A stretch of DNA of 51,444 nt. Source: Muribaculaceae bacterium. GTDB taxonomy: Bacteria; Bacillota; Clostridia; Lachnospirales; Lachnospiraceae. The notes beneath the pieces were generated by a model that saw nothing but the letters and a program-made list of their open reading frames with translations, had not been told where the DNA came from and searched no databases. Of the stretch, positions 6,128-49,989 are shown in pieces. Numbering within the stretch: the first letter of the stretch is position 1; each line of letters starts with the position of its first letter. The position numbers and the translations under genes were made by a program. The stretch lies in assembly GCA_023663465.1 (NCBI GenBank), contig JAMPHJ010000005.1, positions 1 through 51,444 on the forward strand. Direction: 5' to 3'.

Positions 6128-8218
6128 ATGGCAAAATATTTGGTAATTGTGGAATCACCCGCAAAGGTGAAAACCATTAAAAAATTTCTGGGTTCCGGGT
6201 ATGAAGTCATGGCAAGTAACGGACATGTGCGCGATTTACCCAGAAGTCAGATGGGTATCGACGTAGAGCATGGTTTTGAACCCAAGTACATTACGATTAG
6301 AGGAAAAGGAGATATTCTGGCAAGTCTGCGCAAAGAAGTAAAAAAAGCGGACAAAATCTATCTTGCAACTGACCCAGATAGAGAAGGGGAGGCCATTTCC
6401 TGGCATCTTTTCAGGGCATTGAAGCTGGAAGATAAGAAAGTATACCGTATTACTTTTAACGAAATTACGAAAGGCGCAGTCAAAGAGTCCCTGAAAAATG
6501 CAAGAGAAATCGATATGGATCTGGTAGACGCGCAGCAGGCGAGACGCTGCCTGGACCGTATGGTAGGTTATAAAATTTCCCCGCTGTTGTGGGCGAAAGT
6601 AAAGAGAGGGCTAAGCGCGGGACGCGTACAGTCTGTGGCGCTTAGGATTATCTGCGACAGGGAAGAAGAGATTAATGCATTTATCCCGGAAGAATACTGG
6701 ACGCTGCAGGCGGCGTTTCAGATTCCCGGCGAGAAGAAGCCCCTAATCGCCAAATATTATGGCACGACGAAACAGAAACAGGAAATTTCATCCAAAGAAG
6801 AGCTGGATGAGATTAAGAAATCTTTGGATAATGCAGTCTATCAGGTGACGGACGTAAAACGCGGCGAGAGGGTGAAAAAAGCCCCCCTGCCTTTTACGAC
6901 TTCCACCCTGCAGCAGGAAGCGAGTAAGACGCTGAATTTTTCCACGCAGAAGACGATGCGCCTTGCCCAGCAGCTCTATGAAGGCGTCGATATCAAGGGC
7001 AGCGGAACGGTAGGCATCATTACTTATCTGCGTACAGATTCCGTAAGGATTTCCGAAGATGCAGCCAAAATGGCAAAAGAATACATTGCCGGGAATTATG
7101 GGGAAGATTATGCAGCGGAAGGCTCCGGCGAAGCAAAGGGCACGCAGAAGATTCAGGATGCCCATGAAGCAATCCGTCCTACAGATATCGAGAGGACGCC
7201 CGCTAAGATGAAAGAATCCCTTTCCAGGGATCAGTTCAGGCTTTATCAGTTAATCTGGAAGCGTTTTGTGGCAAGCCGGATGACGCCCGCGCAGTATGAG
7301 ACGACTTCGGTTAAGATTGACGCGGCAAAGCGACGTTTTACGGTAGCCGCTTCCAAACTGAAATTTGACGGTTTTTTAAGCGTCTATAGTGAAGAAGATG
7401 AGAAAGAAGAAAACAATACGCTGGTAAAGGGCATCGATAAGAATACGCAGCTGGTATTCGATTCTTTTGAGGAAAAGCAGCATTTCACGCAGCCGGCGCC
7501 GCATTATACGGAAGCTTCGCTGGTGCATGCCTTAGAAGAGCTGGGAATCGGAAGACCGAGTACCTATGCGCCGACGATTACGACGATTCTTGCCAGACGC
7601 TATATTGTAAAAGAAAATAAGAATTTATATGTGACGGAGCTTGGCGAAATCGTCAATAAAATTATGAAAGAAGCCTTTCCTTCCATTGTGGACGTCAATT
7701 TTACGGCGACGATGGAAGCGCTCTTAGACGGTATTGCAGACGGCAATGTCAGATGGAAGACGGTAATCGCCAATTTTTACCCGGATTTGGAAGAGGCGGT
7801 CGTCAAAGCGGAGAAAGAGCTGGAAGAAGTGGAAATTGCCGATGAGGTATCGGATGAAGTCTGCGAACACTGCGGCAGACAGATGGTCATCAAATACGGA
7901 CCGCACGGCAGGTTCCTCGCATGCCCCGGTTTTCCGGAGTGCCGCAATACGAAGCCTTACTTTGAGAAGATTGGCGTACAATGCCCTCACTGTGGCAAAG
8001 ATATTGTCATGAAGAAAACGAAGAAGGGCAGGAAGTATTACGGATGTATCGACAATCCGCAGTGTGATTTTATGGTATGGCCAAAGCCTGTGAATCAGAA
8101 ATGTCCGAAATGCGGTTCTATTATGCTTGAAAAGGGGACGAAACTGGTCTGTGCGGACGCAGAGTGCGGCTATGTGGAGGAGCAAAAGGCTGATGGGGAG
8201 CGTACAATTATTAGATAA
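6128..8218 (+). CDS. topA: DNA topoisomerase I (type IA)
   Basis: Relaxes negatively supercoiled DNA by passing one strand through a transient single-strand break. The 696-residue protein opens with the Toprim strand (YLVIVESPAK, residues 4-13) and has the acidic metal site DPDREGEA (about 82-89). The active-site tyrosine is Tyr300 in the motif TYLRTDS. The C-terminus carries three four-cysteine zinc ribbons beginning at about residues 578, 618 and 658 (CEHC, CPHC, CPKC). The start follows GGCAGGGG by about six bases. Length and domains are normal for Firmicutes TopA. Its last 26 bases overlap codY, so the two are co-transcribed. Confidence 0.98.
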   Translation: MAKYLVIVESPAKVKTIKKFLGSGYEVMASNGHVRDLPRSQMGIDVEHGFEPKYITIRGKGDILASLRKEVKKADKIYLATDPDREGEAISWHLFRALKLEDKKVYRITFNEITKGAVKESLKNAREIDMDLVDAQQARRCLDRMVGYKISPLLWAKVKRGLSAGRVQSVALRIICDREEEINAFIPEEYWTLQAAFQIPGEKKPLIAKYYGTTKQKQEISSKEELDEIKKSLDNAVYQVTDVKRGERVKKAPLPFTTSTLQQEASKTLNFSTQKTMRLAQQLYEGVDIKGSGTVGIITYLRTDSVRISEDAAKMAKEYIAGNYGEDYAAEGSGEAKGTQKIQDAHEAIRPTDIERTPAKMKESLSRDQFRLYQLIWKRFVASRMTPAQYETTSVKIDAAKRRFTVAASKLKFDGFLSVYSEEDEKEENNTLVKGIDKNTQLVFDSFEEKQHFTQPAPHYTEASLVHALEELGIGRPSTYAPTITTILARRYIVKENKNLYVTELGEIVNKIMKEAFPSIVDVNFTATMEALLDGIADGNVRWKTVIANFYPDLEEAVVKAEKELEEVEIADEVSDEVCEHCGRQMVIKYGPHGRFLACPGFPECRNTKPYFEKIGVQCPHCGKDIVMKKTKKGRKYYGCIDNPQCDFMVWPKPVNQKCPKCGSIMLEKGTKLVCADAECGYVEEQKADGERTIIR

Positions 8219-18463: not shown

Positions 18464-19153
18464 ATGATTGGAGCAGTAGAAAACGGAAAACTTGTAGAGT
18501 CTAATTCCGCGGCGTCCCTGGCGCAGGGCACGCACAAAACAAGCAATTCCACAGTCAGCAAAGACCAGTTTTTACAACTTCTGGTAGCGCAGATGAAATA
18601 TCAAGACCCCTTGGAGCCGACTTCCAATACGGAGTATATTTCTCAGTATGCGACCTTCTCAGAGTTAGAGCAGATGCAGAACATGAGCGGTTCCCTGGAA
18701 TTGGCGAGGGCTTCCCAGTTAGTAGGGCAGACCGTATTGATGGAGGTAGCGGATTCCTCGGGAAAAACGACTACGGTACAGGGCAATGTGGATTATGTTG
18801 TTTATGAAAACAACAAAGCGTATCTTTCCATCAACGGCGAATTGTATTCAATGGATGATCTGAATACTGTAGCAGACCCGAATTATCTGGCAGCATATAA
18901 GAAAGCGGCGGAGTTCTTGAATAATTATAACAAACTTCCAGTACTCGCACTTCTGACAATAGACGATAGGGAAGCGGTTGAGAGCATTAACGAGACCTAT
19001 CAGAATATGACGGATTATGAGAAGAAGTTTATTGCAACAGATTATGTAACCGGTCTGAAGAAATATGTAGACAGGATGGAAGAACTGAAAAAATTAGCTG
19101 GCATCACGGATGATGACAATGCAGACACTGACACTGATACTGACACAGAGTAA
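18464..19153 (+). CDS. flgD: Flagellar hook-capping protein FlgD with extra helical tail
   Basis: Cap that guides assembly of FlgE subunits into the hook. Residues about 25-90 are the conserved FlgD N-terminal domain (SKDQFLQLLVAQMKYQDPLEP, then EYISQYATFSELEQMQNM). Residues about 100-130 form a short beta region. After that, residues about 140-212 are helical and resemble the three-helix modules of Gram-positive surface proteins (AVESINETYQNMTDYEKKF). The C-terminus is an Asp/Thr repeat (DTDTDTDTE). The protein is 229 residues, longer than the B. subtilis form. GAAAGGAG precedes the ATG. Confidence 0.93.
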   Translation: MIGAVENGKLVESNSAASLAQGTHKTSNSTVSKDQFLQLLVAQMKYQDPLEPTSNTEYISQYATFSELEQMQNMSGSLELARASQLVGQTVLMEVADSSGKTTTVQGNVDYVVYENNKAYLSINGELYSMDDLNTVADPNYLAAYKKAAEFLNNYNKLPVLALLTIDDREAVESINETYQNMTDYEKKFIATDYVTGLKKYVDRMEELKKLAGITDDDNADTDTDTDTE

Positions 19154-19185
19154 GGATACACAGTAATCTCAAGGAGGAGAAAGGT

Positions 19186-40838: not shown

Positions 40839-41612
40839 ATGGAAGAAGCAGGCAGAAAGAAGCTTTGGGAGGAATATGAGAAGACAAAGGCTCCCGAAGT
40901 GAGGGAAAAAATTATACTGGAGTATGCGCCGCTTGTGAAACTTGTTGCGGGACGTCTTAGTATGTATCTGGGTTACAATGTGGAGTATGAAGATTTAGTA
41001 AGTTATGGCGTTTTCGGATTGATTGATGCAATTGATAAATTTGATACGCTCAAGGACGTTAAATTTGAAACTTATGCCAGTCTTCGGATTCGTGGCGCCA
41101 TTTTGGACCAGATACGCAAGATGGACTGGATACCCAGGACCATCAGGCAGAAACAGAAAAAGATTGACGCCGTAATCAGGGAAATTGAAACGAAGCACGG
41201 CAGAAGCGCGACCGATGATGAAATAGCAGCGGGTCTCGGCATTACCAATGACGAATATATTGACTGGCAGTCTCAGATGAAAGTAACAAATATTGTGTCC
41301 TTAAATGAATTTATGGAGCAGGGCAGTGAGATTCCAAACGACAATAACAGTCATAGTACGCAGTTTGACGGACCGGAAGAGGTCATCGAGAAAGAGGAAC
41401 TGAAAAGGATTCTGGCGGAGTCCTTAGAGACGCTGACAGAAAAAGAGAGGAAAGTAATTTTATTGTACTATTATGAGGATCTGACATTGAAAGAAATCAG
41501 CAGTATTTTAGAGGTGTCGGAATCCAGGATTTCACAGCTGCATACGAGGGCTTTGCAGAAAATGAAAGTCAGACTGGGGAGTTATATGGGTATTCTGACT
41601 GACAGGAATTAA
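40839..41612 (+). CDS. sigD: Flagellar RNA polymerase sigma factor SigD (sigma-28)
   Basis: Directs transcription of late flagellar, chemotaxis and autolysin genes. The 257-residue protein has region 2 (YEDLVSYGVFGLIDAIDKFD, about 48-67), region 3 (RKMDWIPRTIRQK) and region 4 helix-turn-helix (TLKEISSILEVSESRISQLH, about 221-240). ATG 40839 is supported by family length and by a GGAG (40829-40832) a few bases upstream. Its anti-sigma factor FlgM is not in the window. A close match to the sigma-D promoter consensus occurs downstream at 47508-47535. Confidence 0.97.
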   Translation: MEEAGRKKLWEEYEKTKAPEVREKIILEYAPLVKLVAGRLSMYLGYNVEYEDLVSYGVFGLIDAIDKFDTLKDVKFETYASLRIRGAILDQIRKMDWIPRTIRQKQKKIDAVIREIETKHGRSATDDEIAAGLGITNDEYIDWQSQMKVTNIVSLNEFMEQGSEIPNDNNSHSTQFDGPEEVIEKEELKRILAESLETLTEKERKVILLYYYEDLTLKEISSILEVSESRISQLHTRALQKMKVRLGSYMGILTDRN

Positions 41613-46503: not shown

Positions 46504-47442
46504 ATGGCTATCACAGCAGCAATGGTAAAAGAATTAAGAGAAATGACCGATGCGGGCATGATGGATTGTAAAAAGGCGCTCGTTGAGACCGACGGCGATA
46601 TGGAAGCAGCGGTTGAGTATCTGAGAAAGAACGGACAGGCAAAAGCAGAAAAGAAAGCTGGCAGAATCGCGGCGGAAGGGCTTTGCCGTGTTGCAATAAA
46701 AGACGACAAGACGGCAGCAGTCGTAGAAGTCAATTCTGAGACGGATTTCGTAGCGAAAAATGAAGACTTCCAGGCATATGTAGAAGCAGTTGCCACACAG
46801 GCAGTTAATTCTAATGCAGCTGACTTAGACGCTTTTCTGGCGGAAAGCTGGCATCTGGATACTTCTAAGACCGTCAAAGATGCGCTTGTTGATAAAATTG
46901 CGGTTATTGGCGAGAATTTAAGTATCAGAAGGTTCCAGAAAGTCGTTGCAGCAGACGGCTGCGCAGTAACTTATGTACATGGCGGCGGCAGAATCGGCGT
47001 TATCGTGGAAGCAGCTACCGATGTTGTAAACGATGGTGTGAAAGAGGCGCTGACGAATCTTGCAATGCAGGTTGCCGCATTAAATCCGAAATATGTTTCT
47101 ACGGATGATGTATCCGAGGAATATAAGGCGCATGAAAAAGAGATTCTTGCAGAGCAGATTAAGAACGACCCGAAGATGGCAGGAAAGCCGGAAAAAGTTA
47201 TCGAAGGCGCTGTCAACGGACGTCTGAACAAAGAATTAAAAGAAGTATGTCTCTTAGAGCAGGTATATGTTAAAGCGGAAGACGGCAAACAGCCGGTGGC
47301 AAAATATATCGAGCAGGTTGCGAAAGAGAACAATGCGAACCTTTCCATCAAATCTTTCGTCCGTTTTGAGACCGGCGAAGGCATTGAGAAAAAGGAAGAG
47401 AATTTCGCGGAAGAAGTAGCGAAGCAGATGGCAGGAAATTAA
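46504..47442 (+). CDS. tsf: Elongation factor Ts
   Basis: Nucleotide exchange factor that regenerates EF-Tu-GTP. The 312-residue protein has the N-terminal UBA domain (VKELREMTDAGMMDCKKAL), the TDFVAKN motif (about residue 81) and two subdomains of the core. TAGGAGG precedes the ATG. The rpsB-tsf pairing is universal in Firmicutes. Confidence 0.99.
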   Translation: MAITAAMVKELREMTDAGMMDCKKALVETDGDMEAAVEYLRKNGQAKAEKKAGRIAAEGLCRVAIKDDKTAAVVEVNSETDFVAKNEDFQAYVEAVATQAVNSNAADLDAFLAESWHLDTSKTVKDALVDKIAVIGENLSIRRFQKVVAADGCAVTYVHGGGRIGVIVEAATDVVNDGVKEALTNLAMQVAALNPKYVSTDDVSEEYKAHEKEILAEQIKNDPKMAGKPEKVIEGAVNGRLNKELKEVCLLEQVYVKAEDGKQPVAKYIEQVAKENNANLSIKSFVRFETGEGIEKKEENFAEEVAKQMAGN

Positions 47443-47463: not shown

Positions 47464-47506
47464 AAGACATCATTACTTGTTATAGGAGTAATGGTGTCTT
47501 TCTTCT
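47464..47506 (+). terminator. Intrinsic terminator after tsf
   Basis: AAGACATCATTACT (47464-47477) pairs with AGTAATGGTGTCTT (47487-47500), a 14-bp stem with one U-G pair and a 9-base loop, followed by TCTTCT. The tail is pyrimidine-rich rather than a pure U-run. Confidence 0.8.
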
Positions 47507-47507
47507 A

Positions 47508-47535
47508 TAAAGAAATTCCTCCAATCTGCCGATAT
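47508..47535 (+). promoter_or_regulatory. Sigma-D (sigma-28) promoter, near-consensus
   Basis: TAAA (47508-47511) and GCCGATAT (47528-47535) are separated by 16 bases. The -10 octamer is a perfect match to the Bacillus sigma-D consensus TAAA-N14-16-GCCGATAT. It is intergenic, immediately after the tsf terminator and about 100 bases ahead of the DUF6033-like gene. It is the only such intergenic match I found in the window. Confidence 0.85.
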
Positions 47536-47548
47536 ATCAGATAAGAGT

Positions 47549-47578
47549 CGTTATGGAACAATACAAAATTTCATAACG
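47549..47578 (+). other. 5'-UTR hairpin downstream of the sigma-D promoter
   Basis: CGTTATGGAA pairs with TTTCATAACG (one G-U pair) around a 10-base A-rich loop, about 10 bases into the predicted transcript. It has no U-tract after it, so it is not a terminator. It could stabilise the mRNA 5' end or bind a regulator. Confidence 0.6.
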
Positions 47579-47638
47579 GGTGTAATATTATCATATTATA
47601 GAAACGGATTTCGCACACAGTCAAAGGAGGACGAGCAA

Positions 47639-48340
47639 ATGAGTAAAATCGAGGGGTATAGCGTATACCAGAACAATTATGCATCTAGTGCAGTAAAGAG
47701 CCGGAATGCAAAAGACGCGAAGAAGACGGATGAGACCAAGAAAAATGAGAAAAAAGAGAACCCGGTACAGTTGAGCCAGAAAGCAAAGAAACTGTTGGAA
47801 AAACTGCAGAAAACTTACGGCAATATGGATTTTATCGTTGCCGATTATGCCAGTGACGAAGAGGCGTCTGCATATCTGGCAAGGGGCACGAAGGAATACA
47901 GCGTTCTGCTTGATCCAGAAACTTTAGAAGAAATGGCGTCCGACGATACAGTATTGGAAGAACAGATCGGCGTTTTGGAAGATGCAGTCGGACAGCTAAA
48001 AGATATGAAAGAACAGTTAGGGGACAAGAAAGACGAAGTGACGCATCTTGGCGTATCCATTGATAAGGATGGCAGCGTATCTTATTTTGCCGATTTGGAA
48101 AAGGCAGGGGAAAAGCAGAAAGAATGGATAGAAAAGACGCTGGAAAATAAGAAAGAAGAGAGAAGTGAACGGGAAAAGAAAGCGCAGGAAGAACTGGCGG
48201 CGCATGAGAGAACACAGAAGACGAGTGTGCGCGCGGATTCCGTAGAGGAATTACTTGAGAAAATCCGTACGCTGGATTGGGATCAGGTAAAATCCGAGGA
48301 AAAACAGGAAACCGGAGGAAGGTTTGATTTTAGTATCTAA
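47639..48340 (+). CDS. DUF6033-like protein, predicted sigma-D regulon member
   Basis: A 233-residue hydrophilic protein that I recognise only as similar to DUF6033 proteins of Lachnospiraceae (from memory). The N-terminus MSKIEGYSVYQNNYASSAVK is followed by Lys-rich sequence and by PVQLSQKAKKLLEKLQKTYGNMDFIVADYAS (shown by its parts at about residues 41-72). The second half is a charged coiled coil (about 140-195). It ends GGRFDFSI. There is no signal peptide. The N-terminal pattern, with a LSQKAKKLLEKL-type helix, is reminiscent of flagellar axial or chaperone-associated proteins, but this is inference. AAAGGAGG precedes the ATG. Confidence 0.8.
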   Translation: MSKIEGYSVYQNNYASSAVKSRNAKDAKKTDETKKNEKKENPVQLSQKAKKLLEKLQKTYGNMDFIVADYASDEEASAYLARGTKEYSVLLDPETLEEMASDDTVLEEQIGVLEDAVGQLKDMKEQLGDKKDEVTHLGVSIDKDGSVSYFADLEKAGEKQKEWIEKTLENKKEERSEREKKAQEELAAHERTQKTSVRADSVEELLEKIRTLDWDQVKSEEKQETGGRFDFSI

Positions 48341-48369
48341 GATTTTAGGATATAAGAGGACGGACAGTC

Positions 48370-49989
48370 ATGGAAAATTTAAGAAATGAGACGGTTCCCG
48401 TAAGAGAGGGTATCTTGCGGAAGAAATATTATCTTTATCTTACGGAGTTTTTTGCGGGAATGTCGGTAATGGCAGTGGAGCTTGGCGCAAGCCGGCTCCT
48501 TGCTCCGTATTTCAGCTCTTCGCAGATTGTATGGACAATTATCATCGGGACGATTATGATTGCCATGGCGCTTGGCAATATCTGGGGCGGCAGGAGCGCG
48601 GACAAAAATCCGGATCCGGACAGGCTTTATGTCCGGATTATCATAGCGGCAATCTGGATTGCGGCGATTCCGGTCGTGGGCAAATACATTATTATAGGAA
48701 TTTCGGCGGCGCTGGTTTTTACGATTAGCAATCAGTTTTTAGTCTGCGCGGCTTTTTTGGCGTGTATGGTTATTTTTGTGTTTCCGCTGTTTTTGCTGGG
48801 GACGGTAACGCCGTCTTTGGTGAAGTATACGGTGGACAGCTTAGATGAGAGCGGAAAAACGGTAGGGTCGCTTGGCGCGTTTAATACGATTGGAAGCATT
48901 ATTGGGACATTCCTGCCCACATTTGTGACGATTCCGACAGTGGGCACGTCCGTCACATTTCTAATTTTTGCAGGGATACTGCTGGCGCTTTCCGCCATCT
49001 ATTTTATCAGTACGAAAAGGAAAAAAGGACAATTAATAGCGGGTGTTATATTATATATCATATGCTGTATATCCGGGGCTTCCAACAGTTTTGCATTCTG
49101 GGAAAAGGACTTATTATACGAAGGCGAGTCCATCTACAATTATCTGCAGGTAAAGGAAACGCCGGACAGCGTTATTTTATCGACGAATGTACTGTTTGGC
49201 GTGCAGTCCATCATGAAAAAAGAGGGCGGCGCCACGGGAATGTACTATGACTATGCAATGGCTGCGCCGCTGATGGCGGGAGCCTCGGACGGGGATATTT
49301 TGATTCTGGGTATGGGAACCGGAACATACGCCAGGCAGTGTCAGCGTTATTACGAAGGAGCTTTTGTGGAAGGCGTGGAAATCGACCAGAAGATAACGGA
49401 TTTATCGGGAACGTATTTTGATCTGCCTTCTTCGGTGCCGGTGACGACTTATGACGGGCGCAGTTTCCTGGCAGCGGATAAAAAGCTCTACGATGTGATT
49501 ATGGTGGACGCCTATCAGGATATTACGATTCCGTTCCAGATGTCGTCCGTGGAATTTTTTACTTTGGTCAAAGAGCATCTGAAGGAAAACGGCGTTATGG
49601 TCGTCAATATGAATATGCATTCCGATAGGGAAGGAAATATCAACGAATATCTGTCGGATACGATTGCTGCTGTTTTTGAGAATGTATATACCGTGGACGT
49701 GTCAGGTTCCACTAACCGGGAACTTTTTGCCACGCAGAATGAGGATATGCTGGCGGAGTTTGAAGCTGGCAGAAGCGAGGTTGCGGATGAGCAGCTGCAA
49801 AAGATGCTTGCAAAGACCGCGGAGGGCATTCTTCCTTATGAAAAGGGGGAATATCTGCTGACGGATGATAAAGCGCCCGTCGAACTGCTGGGAATGCAGG
49901 TCATAGACGATTTGATTAAACGGGAGTTAGTTTATTATAAACAGGTATTTAAAGAGGAAGGAATCGAAGGTCTGCTGCGGGGATTTTAA
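48370..49989 (+). CDS. Fused MFS-like transporter/spermidine-synthase-like protein
   Basis: A 539-residue two-part protein. Residues about 20-245 contain eight or so membrane helices with the ELGASRLLAPYFSSSQIVW and LGTVTPSLVKY motifs typical of the fused MFS/spermidine synthase family. Residues about 255-500 form a Rossmann methyltransferase-like fold with ILGMGTGTYARQC (about 312-324), GVEIDQKI and a VDAYQD motif at the spermidine-synthase active-site position. Substrate is unknown; aminopropyl transfer cannot be assumed. It lies 29 bases after the DUF6033-like gene with no promoter or terminator between, so it is probably on the same sigma-D transcript. Confidence 0.88.
   Translation: MENLRNETVPVREGILRKKYYLYLTEFFAGMSVMAVELGASRLLAPYFSSSQIVWTIIIGTIMIAMALGNIWGGRSADKNPDPDRLYVRIIIAAIWIAAIPVVGKYIIIGISAALVFTISNQFLVCAAFLACMVIFVFPLFLLGTVTPSLVKYTVDSLDESGKTVGSLGAFNTIGSIIGTFLPTFVTIPTVGTSVTFLIFAGILLALSAIYFISTKRKKGQLIAGVILYIICCISGASNSFAFWEKDLLYEGESIYNYLQVKETPDSVILSTNVLFGVQSIMKKEGGATGMYYDYAMAAPLMAGASDGDILILGMGTGTYARQCQRYYEGAFVEGVEIDQKITDLSGTYFDLPSSVPVTTYDGRSFLAADKKLYDVIMVDAYQDITIPFQMSSVEFFTLVKEHLKENGVMVVNMNMHSDREGNINEYLSDTIAAVFENVYTVDVSGSTNRELFATQNEDMLAEFEAGRSEVADEQLQKMLAKTAEGILPYEKGEYLLTDDKAPVELLGMQVIDDLIKRELVYYKQVFKEEGIEGLLRGF

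Follow-up and report, generated by a model that had tools for sequence, protein, structure and literature searches.

Downstream of tsf, the DNA stretch considered here carries a DUF6033 gene followed by an MFS_SpdSyn gene, and the question raised by this locus was whether these two genes belong to the motility regulon, as proposed in an earlier note from a sigma-D promoter seen ahead of them. The window, i.e., the whole stretch of 51,444 nucleotides (nt) that was analyzed, is an entire contig of an 86%-complete, 3.15-Mb genome assigned to the Lachnospiraceae. The comparison with homologous loci indicated that the DUF6033 gene is probably a late flagellar gene placed under two flagellin-like controls, with an export step of its product as a more conjectural addition, and that the second gene would most likely be a lineage-specific passenger of the sigma-D unit.

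The identity of both genes was established with profile searches. The product of the first gene matched PF19498 over its full length (181.7 bits for a cut-off of 25; model positions 1–205 of 205), and the product of the second matched NF037959 (MFS_SpdSyn) with 205.4 bits for a cut-off of 40, over positions 4–480 of 480, which comprises both parts and nearly the whole model. The naming of the two genes as DUF6033-like and as a fused MFS/spermidine-synthase-like gene was therefore correct (E-values are given in the table).

The sigma-D site ahead of DUF6033, TAAAGAAATTCCTCCAATCTGCCGATAT, agreed with the consensus at all 12 positions, with a spacer of 16 nt, and started 7 nt after the terminator-like hairpin behind tsf; the earlier note had likewise placed it right behind the tsf terminator. 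It was the single match to TAAA-N14..16-GCCGATA in the window, 0.11 being expected per shuffle. In the whole genome, however, the count was 11 for the 11-letter pattern and 15 for its reversed control; the motif match by itself is not above chance and is weak evidence alone. The promoter is credible because it is conserved in homologues, not because of this genome count. For the comparison, upstream sequences of at most 250 nt were collected for the DUF6033 genes of 30 + 80 loci, with start codons chosen by a script, and 101 non-redundant upstreams were retained after eight near-duplicates and one short upstream were set aside. The best site scored at least 10/12 in 74 of them, at least 11 in 41 and 12/12 in 15. 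Among resampled controls (n = 2020) these levels were reached in 4.6%, 0.3% and 0, and the upstreams of neighboring genes reached at least 10/12 in 21 of 364 and at least 11 in four of 364, one of these four belonging to a DUF6033 gene. As a yardstick, scores of at least 10/12 were obtained for 17 of 31 flgM and 15 of 31 flagellin upstreams; in the window's own genome, the score was 10 for flgM and 11, 10 and 9 for three flagellin-like genes, with a fourth one truncated at a contig end.

Furthermore, among the loci of the closest clade, the intergenic sequence was barely alignable save for two blocks. One was the sigma-D site, conserved except for a variable first base of the -10 element, and the other was AGAAACGGATTTCG...AAAGTCAAAGGAGGAC, beside the start codon. 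It is thus very improbable that the motif of the window is a chance match, in spite of a genome count no higher than that of the reversed control, since its footprint is kept in a region that otherwise hardly aligns and 74 of the 101 homologue upstreams carry a site of at least 10/12. The check suggested with the original claim, a search for the same motif ahead of homologues, did not refute it. With a consensus promoter at a suitable distance that is kept in homologues, sigma-D control of DUF6033 is strongly supported by sequence comparison.

The distribution of the family was analyzed in 120 genomes of the window's family (family sample) and in 292 genomes of its class (class sample). In the family sample, DUF6033 was present in 40 genomes, with up to eight matches per genome, FlhA in 65, FlgM in 64 and flagellin in 65. 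DUF6033 was found in 40 of the 65 genomes with FlhA and in none of the 55 without it (p 7e-15, a value that does not allow for the relatedness of the genomes). In the class sample, 14 genomes had DUF6033 over the cut-off, and FlhA was found in 13 of them, the exception being G404. Two of the four matches of G359, a genome from a different family of the class, were examined, and both showed perfect sigma-D sites; one of these genes was located 3' of flhA (with fliR- and flhB-like genes recognized by eye) and a sigma factor gene, and was followed by a FlxA-like gene. The DUF6033 gene of G217 showed a 10/12 site.

Some distant members were seen in other surroundings. In G404 (L214, G404:C11:5066-13071), short DUF6033-like or similar-looking proteins were encoded in a row behind apparent response-regulator and sensor-kinase genes, with no sigma-D sites. 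In two class genomes with FlhA (L215:5021-15380 and L216:7209-14557), distant members lay beside a gene for a small cysteine-rich peptide and apparent ABC-transporter and protease genes, resembling by eye a peptide-natural-product locus; the L216 member had a weak match to the leader model described below directly 5' of it (7150-7207, E 0.09).

A second signal, absent from the earlier note and the more interesting result of this analysis, was found in the messenger: judged by its sequence, the DUF6033 leader is built like a flagellin leader. In the window, some 20 nt 5' of the Shine-Dalgarno GGA, it can form the hairpin GAA[ACGGAU]UUC, whose loop contains GGA. This hairpin was exact in seven of the nine closest named loci and had a changed loop base in the other two. 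By a fixed rule (a GGA-loop hairpin plus a Shine-Dalgarno GGA), 51 of the 101 DUF6033 leaders qualified versus 43 of 375 control genes (p 6e-16), at least four of these control genes being themselves DUF6033 genes (L104:4597, L114:101, L127:4566 and L138:3495); among resampled leaders, 8% fitted the rule. Both the sigma-D site and the hairpin were present in 36 of the 101 upstreams, for example in Lachnospiraceae bacterium 10-1 (L088; score 11/12, stem of 6) and Butyrivibrio sp. XPD2002 (L140; score 10/12, stem of 5). When the longer-stemmed relatives L005 and L010 were folded, the hairpin was present in the predicted fold.

Because selection for pairing was to be avoided, loops were also picked by sequence alone (ANGGAN). 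A candidate was found in 69 of the 101 leaders, and exactly one in 60 of them. In these 60, the mean stem was 3.27 pairs versus 1.33 when arms were swapped between sequences (maximum of 2000 swaps, 1.92), and when the 37 distinct 4-nt arm pairs were each counted once, it was 2.41 versus 0.95 (maximum 1.54). An alignment of 42 hairpin-selected leaders gave a covariation score of 0.42, compared with 0.12 for shuffled and at most 0.13 for slid alignments.

The link to flagellin was addressed with a leader model, R1, trained on 42 of the 51 hairpin-bearing DUF6033 leaders and on no flagellin leader; the nine left out were close repeats or had loops judged by eye to be atypical. In the search of the window's genome, 150 of 1521 first-look candidates were scored. 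The best match was the DUF6033 leader itself (47584–47638, 42.7 bits), which was in the training set, and the second was a flagellin leader (E 3.8e-5), with the match ending right at the flagellin start codon. In other genomes, R1 matched at E ≤ 0.01 in 16 of 30 flagellin loci, in none of 28 SpdSyn loci (two loci containing a DUF6033 gene being left out) and in one of 31 flgM loci. In the 80 named loci, which together span 872.5 kb and of which 26 had contributed training leaders, 37 matches at E ≤ 0.01 were obtained, and 30 of them lay at the DUF6033 start codon. Among the other seven, three preceded further DUF6033 genes recognized by Pfam, one preceded a DUF6033-looking gene, two lay, within the same array, ahead of a gene for a 195-aa protein that matched no Pfam family, and the last (L120) was unexplained. 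The single match in a flgM locus (L158:1757-1813, E 0.0005) was positioned directly ahead of flgM, which may share the leader control there.

Once again in the window's genome, csrA and fliW were found adjacent to each other (L221; PF02599, E 3.1e-25, and PF02623, E 6.6e-39), on the contig that also carried flaG, fliD and the flagellin gene. According to PMC7652899, CsrA binds GGA in hairpin loops (consensus RUACARGGAUGU from systematic evolution of ligands by exponential enrichment, SELEX), the loops mostly have six bases and stand on stems of no more than four contiguous pairs, and hag is repressed by CsrA via two sites, one of which covers the Shine-Dalgarno sequence. Predicted CsrA sites of the same kind are described for Clostridioides difficile fliC in PMC8523840. 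The DUF6033 leader thus resembles the flagellin (hag/fliC) mRNA of Bacillus subtilis and C. difficile in its sigma-D promoter, its upstream GGA, its Shine-Dalgarno GGA and the presence of csrA and fliW in the genome; it differs in the gene product, and CsrA control is in this case a prediction from sequence.

The following sequence of events is proposed. RNA polymerase with sigma-D, for which the window encodes a candidate (fliA), would transcribe DUF6033 from the site described above. A CsrA dimer, whose binding to this leader we infer, would then occupy the GGA-loop hairpin and the Shine-Dalgarno GGA and block the ribosome, and FliW, freed upon flagellin export, would lift the block, so that DUF6033 would be made only during filament building and in step with flagellin. 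The combination of a late-flagellar promoter and a flagellin-like control hairpin suggests, in any case, that the product is made in step with the filament. The hairpin could also be real and be read by something other than CsrA, or merely tune ribosome access, and the weak stem of the window would agree with this; we regard it as improbable, since a GGA in a short loop together with a Shine-Dalgarno GGA is the layout reported for CsrA (PMC7652899 and PMC8523840), and the flagellin leader of the same genome has this layout as well, with csrA and fliW present.

Several observations, besides the genome count of the promoter motif, weigh against two flagellin-like controls acting on DUF6033. The sigma-D score was below 10 in 27 of the 101 upstreams, the fixed rule found no hairpin in 50 of the 101 leaders, and 12 of the 101 upstreams had neither signal. 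The stem of the window has only three to four base pairs and lies outside the predicted minimum-energy fold, as does the hairpin of the flagellin leader from the same genome. Of the five measures taken on the 42-leader alignment, two were near the shuffled values: pairs changed on both sides (5 versus 4.6) and further pair types (21 versus 18.1). The third match of R1 in the window's genome (E 0.06) was 5' of an unrelated-looking small protein. For the reciprocal model, R2, 19 flagellin leaders were initially aligned, their 3' arm being misaligned, and the nine that were gap-free in the hairpin were kept; R2 gave ten matches at E ≤ 1, of which six were at DUF6033 leaders, two of these with E ≤ 0.01, and no match at the DUF6033 leader of the window. 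Finally, G404, in which no FlhA was found, has DUF6033-like genes, and the DUF6033 members of G404, G142 and G272 were in other contexts and had no sigma-D site. Control of DUF6033 by sigma-D and by a flagellin-like leader is supported by comparison: the conservation of the promoter, the co-occurrence with flagella, the pairing of the hairpin together with the match to flagellin leaders, and the presence of csrA and fliW.

The protein itself was then considered. Only 13 cysteines were counted in 26510 aa (0.05%) across 103 DUF6033 proteins, compared with one in 2850 aa for FlgM, 0.30% for flagellin frames, 1.49% for neighboring proteins, and 1.38% for neighbors matched in size and charge. FlgM is named as an exported protein of B. 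subtilis in the title of a reference in PMC6529632. When the N-terminus of the window's subfamily was aligned with FlgM by hhalign, scores of 23–25 were obtained, the best of 100 column shuffles being 18.7. DUF6033 is hence similar to FlgM, the exported anti-sigma factor, in its sigma-D site, a short N-terminus of similar pattern and the near absence of cysteine; it is two to three times longer, however, with its own conserved core, it falls below the cut-offs of the FlgM models, and a separate flgM is present. Since the genome has its own flgM, DUF6033 was rejected as a FlgM replacement. The search of solved structures with the DUF6033 profile gave a best E of 0.45, i.e., no solved relative by sequence, and in a Pfam scan of 71 members DUF6033 was found in all 71, any other family appearing with weak E-values and in no more than ten each.

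From these features, late export of the DUF6033 protein through the flagellum appears somewhat more probable than its retention. The protein would be a late export substrate by virtue of its FlgM-like N-terminus, and would act on or around the filament. Evidence of the opposite sign was also obtained. The FliA of the window is cysteine-free too, as were 12 of 119 matched neighbors, so export does not follow from missing cysteines. The resemblance to FlgM is weak (hhalign probability 42–47%, with 33 of 79 N-termini used), and FlgM models gave 10.8 bits on the DUF6033 protein of the window for a cut-off of 40.75 (TIGR03824) and no Pfam match (PF04316) at 0.001. In view of G404, G142 and G272, flagellar export cannot apply to every DUF6033 member.

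A cytoplasmic late-stage factor is a possible alternative: a regulator or chaperone (e.g., a partner of sigma-D, of FliW or of an export chaperone) made with flagellin and not exported. Sigma-D and CsrA-type control would suit any such factor, the FlgM-like N-terminus could serve for binding rather than for export, the C-terminal half of DUF6033 is highly charged, and some cytoplasmic proteins, such as FliA, do without cysteine. On the other hand, the cysteine depletion over 103 proteins equals that of FlgM and is about 30-fold below that of neighbors, up to eight matches per genome are more in keeping with surface or secreted proteins than with a regulator, and no anti-sigma factor is missing from a genome with its own FlgM. 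On this evidence the cytoplasmic role seems rather unlikely. The fuller proposal, that the DUF6033 proteins form an unrecognized class of accessory proteins, exported through the flagellum and produced under the circuit of flagellin homeostasis, is put forward tentatively, as a serious possibility short of a probable one. If it holds, FliW-CsrA would control a second exported family besides flagellin, and perhaps one more gene of the window's genome (G000:C144, see below), and a flagellated bacterium would ship cargo in step with filament growth.

The results for the MFS_SpdSyn gene were different. This gene starts 29 nt behind DUF6033, and, in agreement with the earlier note, a simple consensus scan of the gap (48341–48369) detected no terminator-like site and no promoter-like site on the + strand. 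Within the flanks examined, MFS_SpdSyn was located closely behind DUF6033 (start within 60 nt) in eight of nine loci of the closest clade and in none of the 71 others. Both the close spacing and the clean gap would suit an enzyme of the motility regulon that modifies the filament, a glycan or polyamines, as formerly suggested. Nevertheless, MFS_SpdSyn was found in 38 of the 120 genomes of the family sample and was about equally common with and without flagella (23 of 65 genomes with FlhA versus 15 of 55 without, p 0.43), its upstreams had a sigma-D site of at least 10/12 in one of 30, which is the chance level, and no neighbor within about 1.5 kb was common to more than two of 29 other loci. 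DUF6033 was beside it in just two of 30 loci of the family sample, once in reverse order, although a very divergent DUF6033 could escape this count. As a flagellar gene, MFS_SpdSyn was consequently rejected on distribution and context, and the motility enzyme is considered highly unlikely. Of the original placement of both genes in the motility regulon, the part concerning DUF6033 stood, on the promoter and FlhA counts given above, and the part concerning the enzyme did not. The gene is best described as a most likely lineage-specific passenger that would receive some transcription from upstream; within the closest clade, transcripts started at the sigma-D promoter may plausibly extend into it, and no result indicates a role in motility.

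GGGDG and DxxDP are the catalytic motifs of spermidine synthase. They are read in the solved spermidine synthases, and both are replaced in the MFS_SpdSyn protein of the window. The 29 aligned relatives (L032–L060) carried changed motifs as well, with G[MN]G[TS]G in 27 of 29 and DAYQDI in 29 of 29. Because DAYQDI is invariant in place of the aminopropyltransferase DxxDP, this conserved family probably has a chemistry other than that of spermidine synthase.

DUF6033, a family of unknown function that occurs in one third of the genomes of the family sample, was named in no paper of the open-licence literature searched, and no link of it to sigma-D or CsrA was found there in titles and abstract openings. 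In the parts available, the promoter analysis of PMC3720852 covers flagellin genes, and CsrA-FliW in Firmicutes is described around flagellin (PMC7652899, PMC8523840 and PMC6529632). For the DUF6033 family, the present results supply a time of expression, a likely partner system and two control steps open to testing. If CsrA-FliW had a second conserved target family, the reach of the circuit would be seen to go beyond filament mass. The leader model can additionally be used to point at other late-flagellar genes.

Accessory genes were also noted near DUF6033. One cluster of them was found in five of 80 loci, and the single member scanned matched FlxA. FlxA-like proteins (PF14282) are a different protein family from DUF6033. 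In Escherichia coli, flxA is a target of FliA.

The features of the locus are collected in Table 1. The window contains a flagellar and chemotaxis locus with fliA and a FapA gene at its end, followed by a DUF6115 gene, a weakly YceG-like gene (below cut-off), rpsB and tsf; 3' of tsf come the terminator-like hairpin, the sigma-D site, DUF6033, MFS_SpdSyn, rubrerythrin and polysaccharide deacetylase. The segment 47455–47520, which covers the terminator-like hairpin, folds at -20.4 kcal/mol (z -4.67).

Table 1. Features of the tsf–DUF6033–MFS_SpdSyn locus and its candidate sigma factor gene (window coordinates).
Feature	Position	Strand	Basis
fliA/sigD, FliA/WhiG-family sigma factor, candidate reader of the promoter	40839..41612	+	TIGR02479, E 2e-79
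tsf, elongation factor Ts; upstream neighbor, outside the unit	46504..47442	+	PF00889, E 1e-63
Intrinsic-terminator-like hairpin behind tsf	47464..47500	+	15 pairs
Putative sigma-D promoter, TAAA-N16-GCCGATAT, 12/12	47508..47535	+	Consensus match; conserved in homologues
Leader hairpin GAA[ACGGAU]UUC, predicted CsrA-type GGA-in-loop site	47601..47612	+	Clade alignment and family-wide pairing tests
Shine-Dalgarno sequence AAAGGAGGA, containing the second GGA	47623..47631	+	Clade alignment
DUF6033 protein, 233 aa, no cysteine, FlgM-like N-terminus	47639..48340	+	PF19498, E 2.1e-53
MFS_SpdSyn, membrane spermidine-synthase-like protein, 539 aa, probable passenger	48370..49989	+	NF037959, E 1.4e-60; PF01564, E 2.4e-11

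Some variation and some further genes were observed in these searches. Two close relatives (L080:4646-5896 and L084:4652-5899) have an extra gene between tsf and DUF6033, which in L080 encodes a PAS-GGDEF diguanylate cyclase. Rows of two to three DUF6033-type genes, each with its own leader-model match, were seen at L114:41-1335, L117:4712-6000 and L127:4506-6000; the rows of L114 and L117 include the 195-aa protein without a Pfam match, and in all three the last gene is DUF6033, with a weaker leader match (E 0.03–0.08) and a sigma-D score of only 8/12.

In the window's genome, a gene for a 266-aa protein without a Pfam match (L073/L259, G000:C144:14064-14976) has a perfect sigma-D site, and its leader can form the hairpin ggtaa[AAGGAT]ttacc ahead of CAGGGAGGA, with an R1 match of only E 2.4; it is possibly a further sigma-D/CsrA-type gene of this genome. 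A 209-aa protein starting MSVNGVTGATSAYEAYQ... (L257, G000:C123:15806-15884) is preceded by a weak leader-model match (E 1.4) and a 9/12 sigma-D-like site. Within the window, each of the two leader models gave a weak match at positions 19134–19185 (E 0.13 and 2.0), in front of the PF12611 gene of the flagellar operon.

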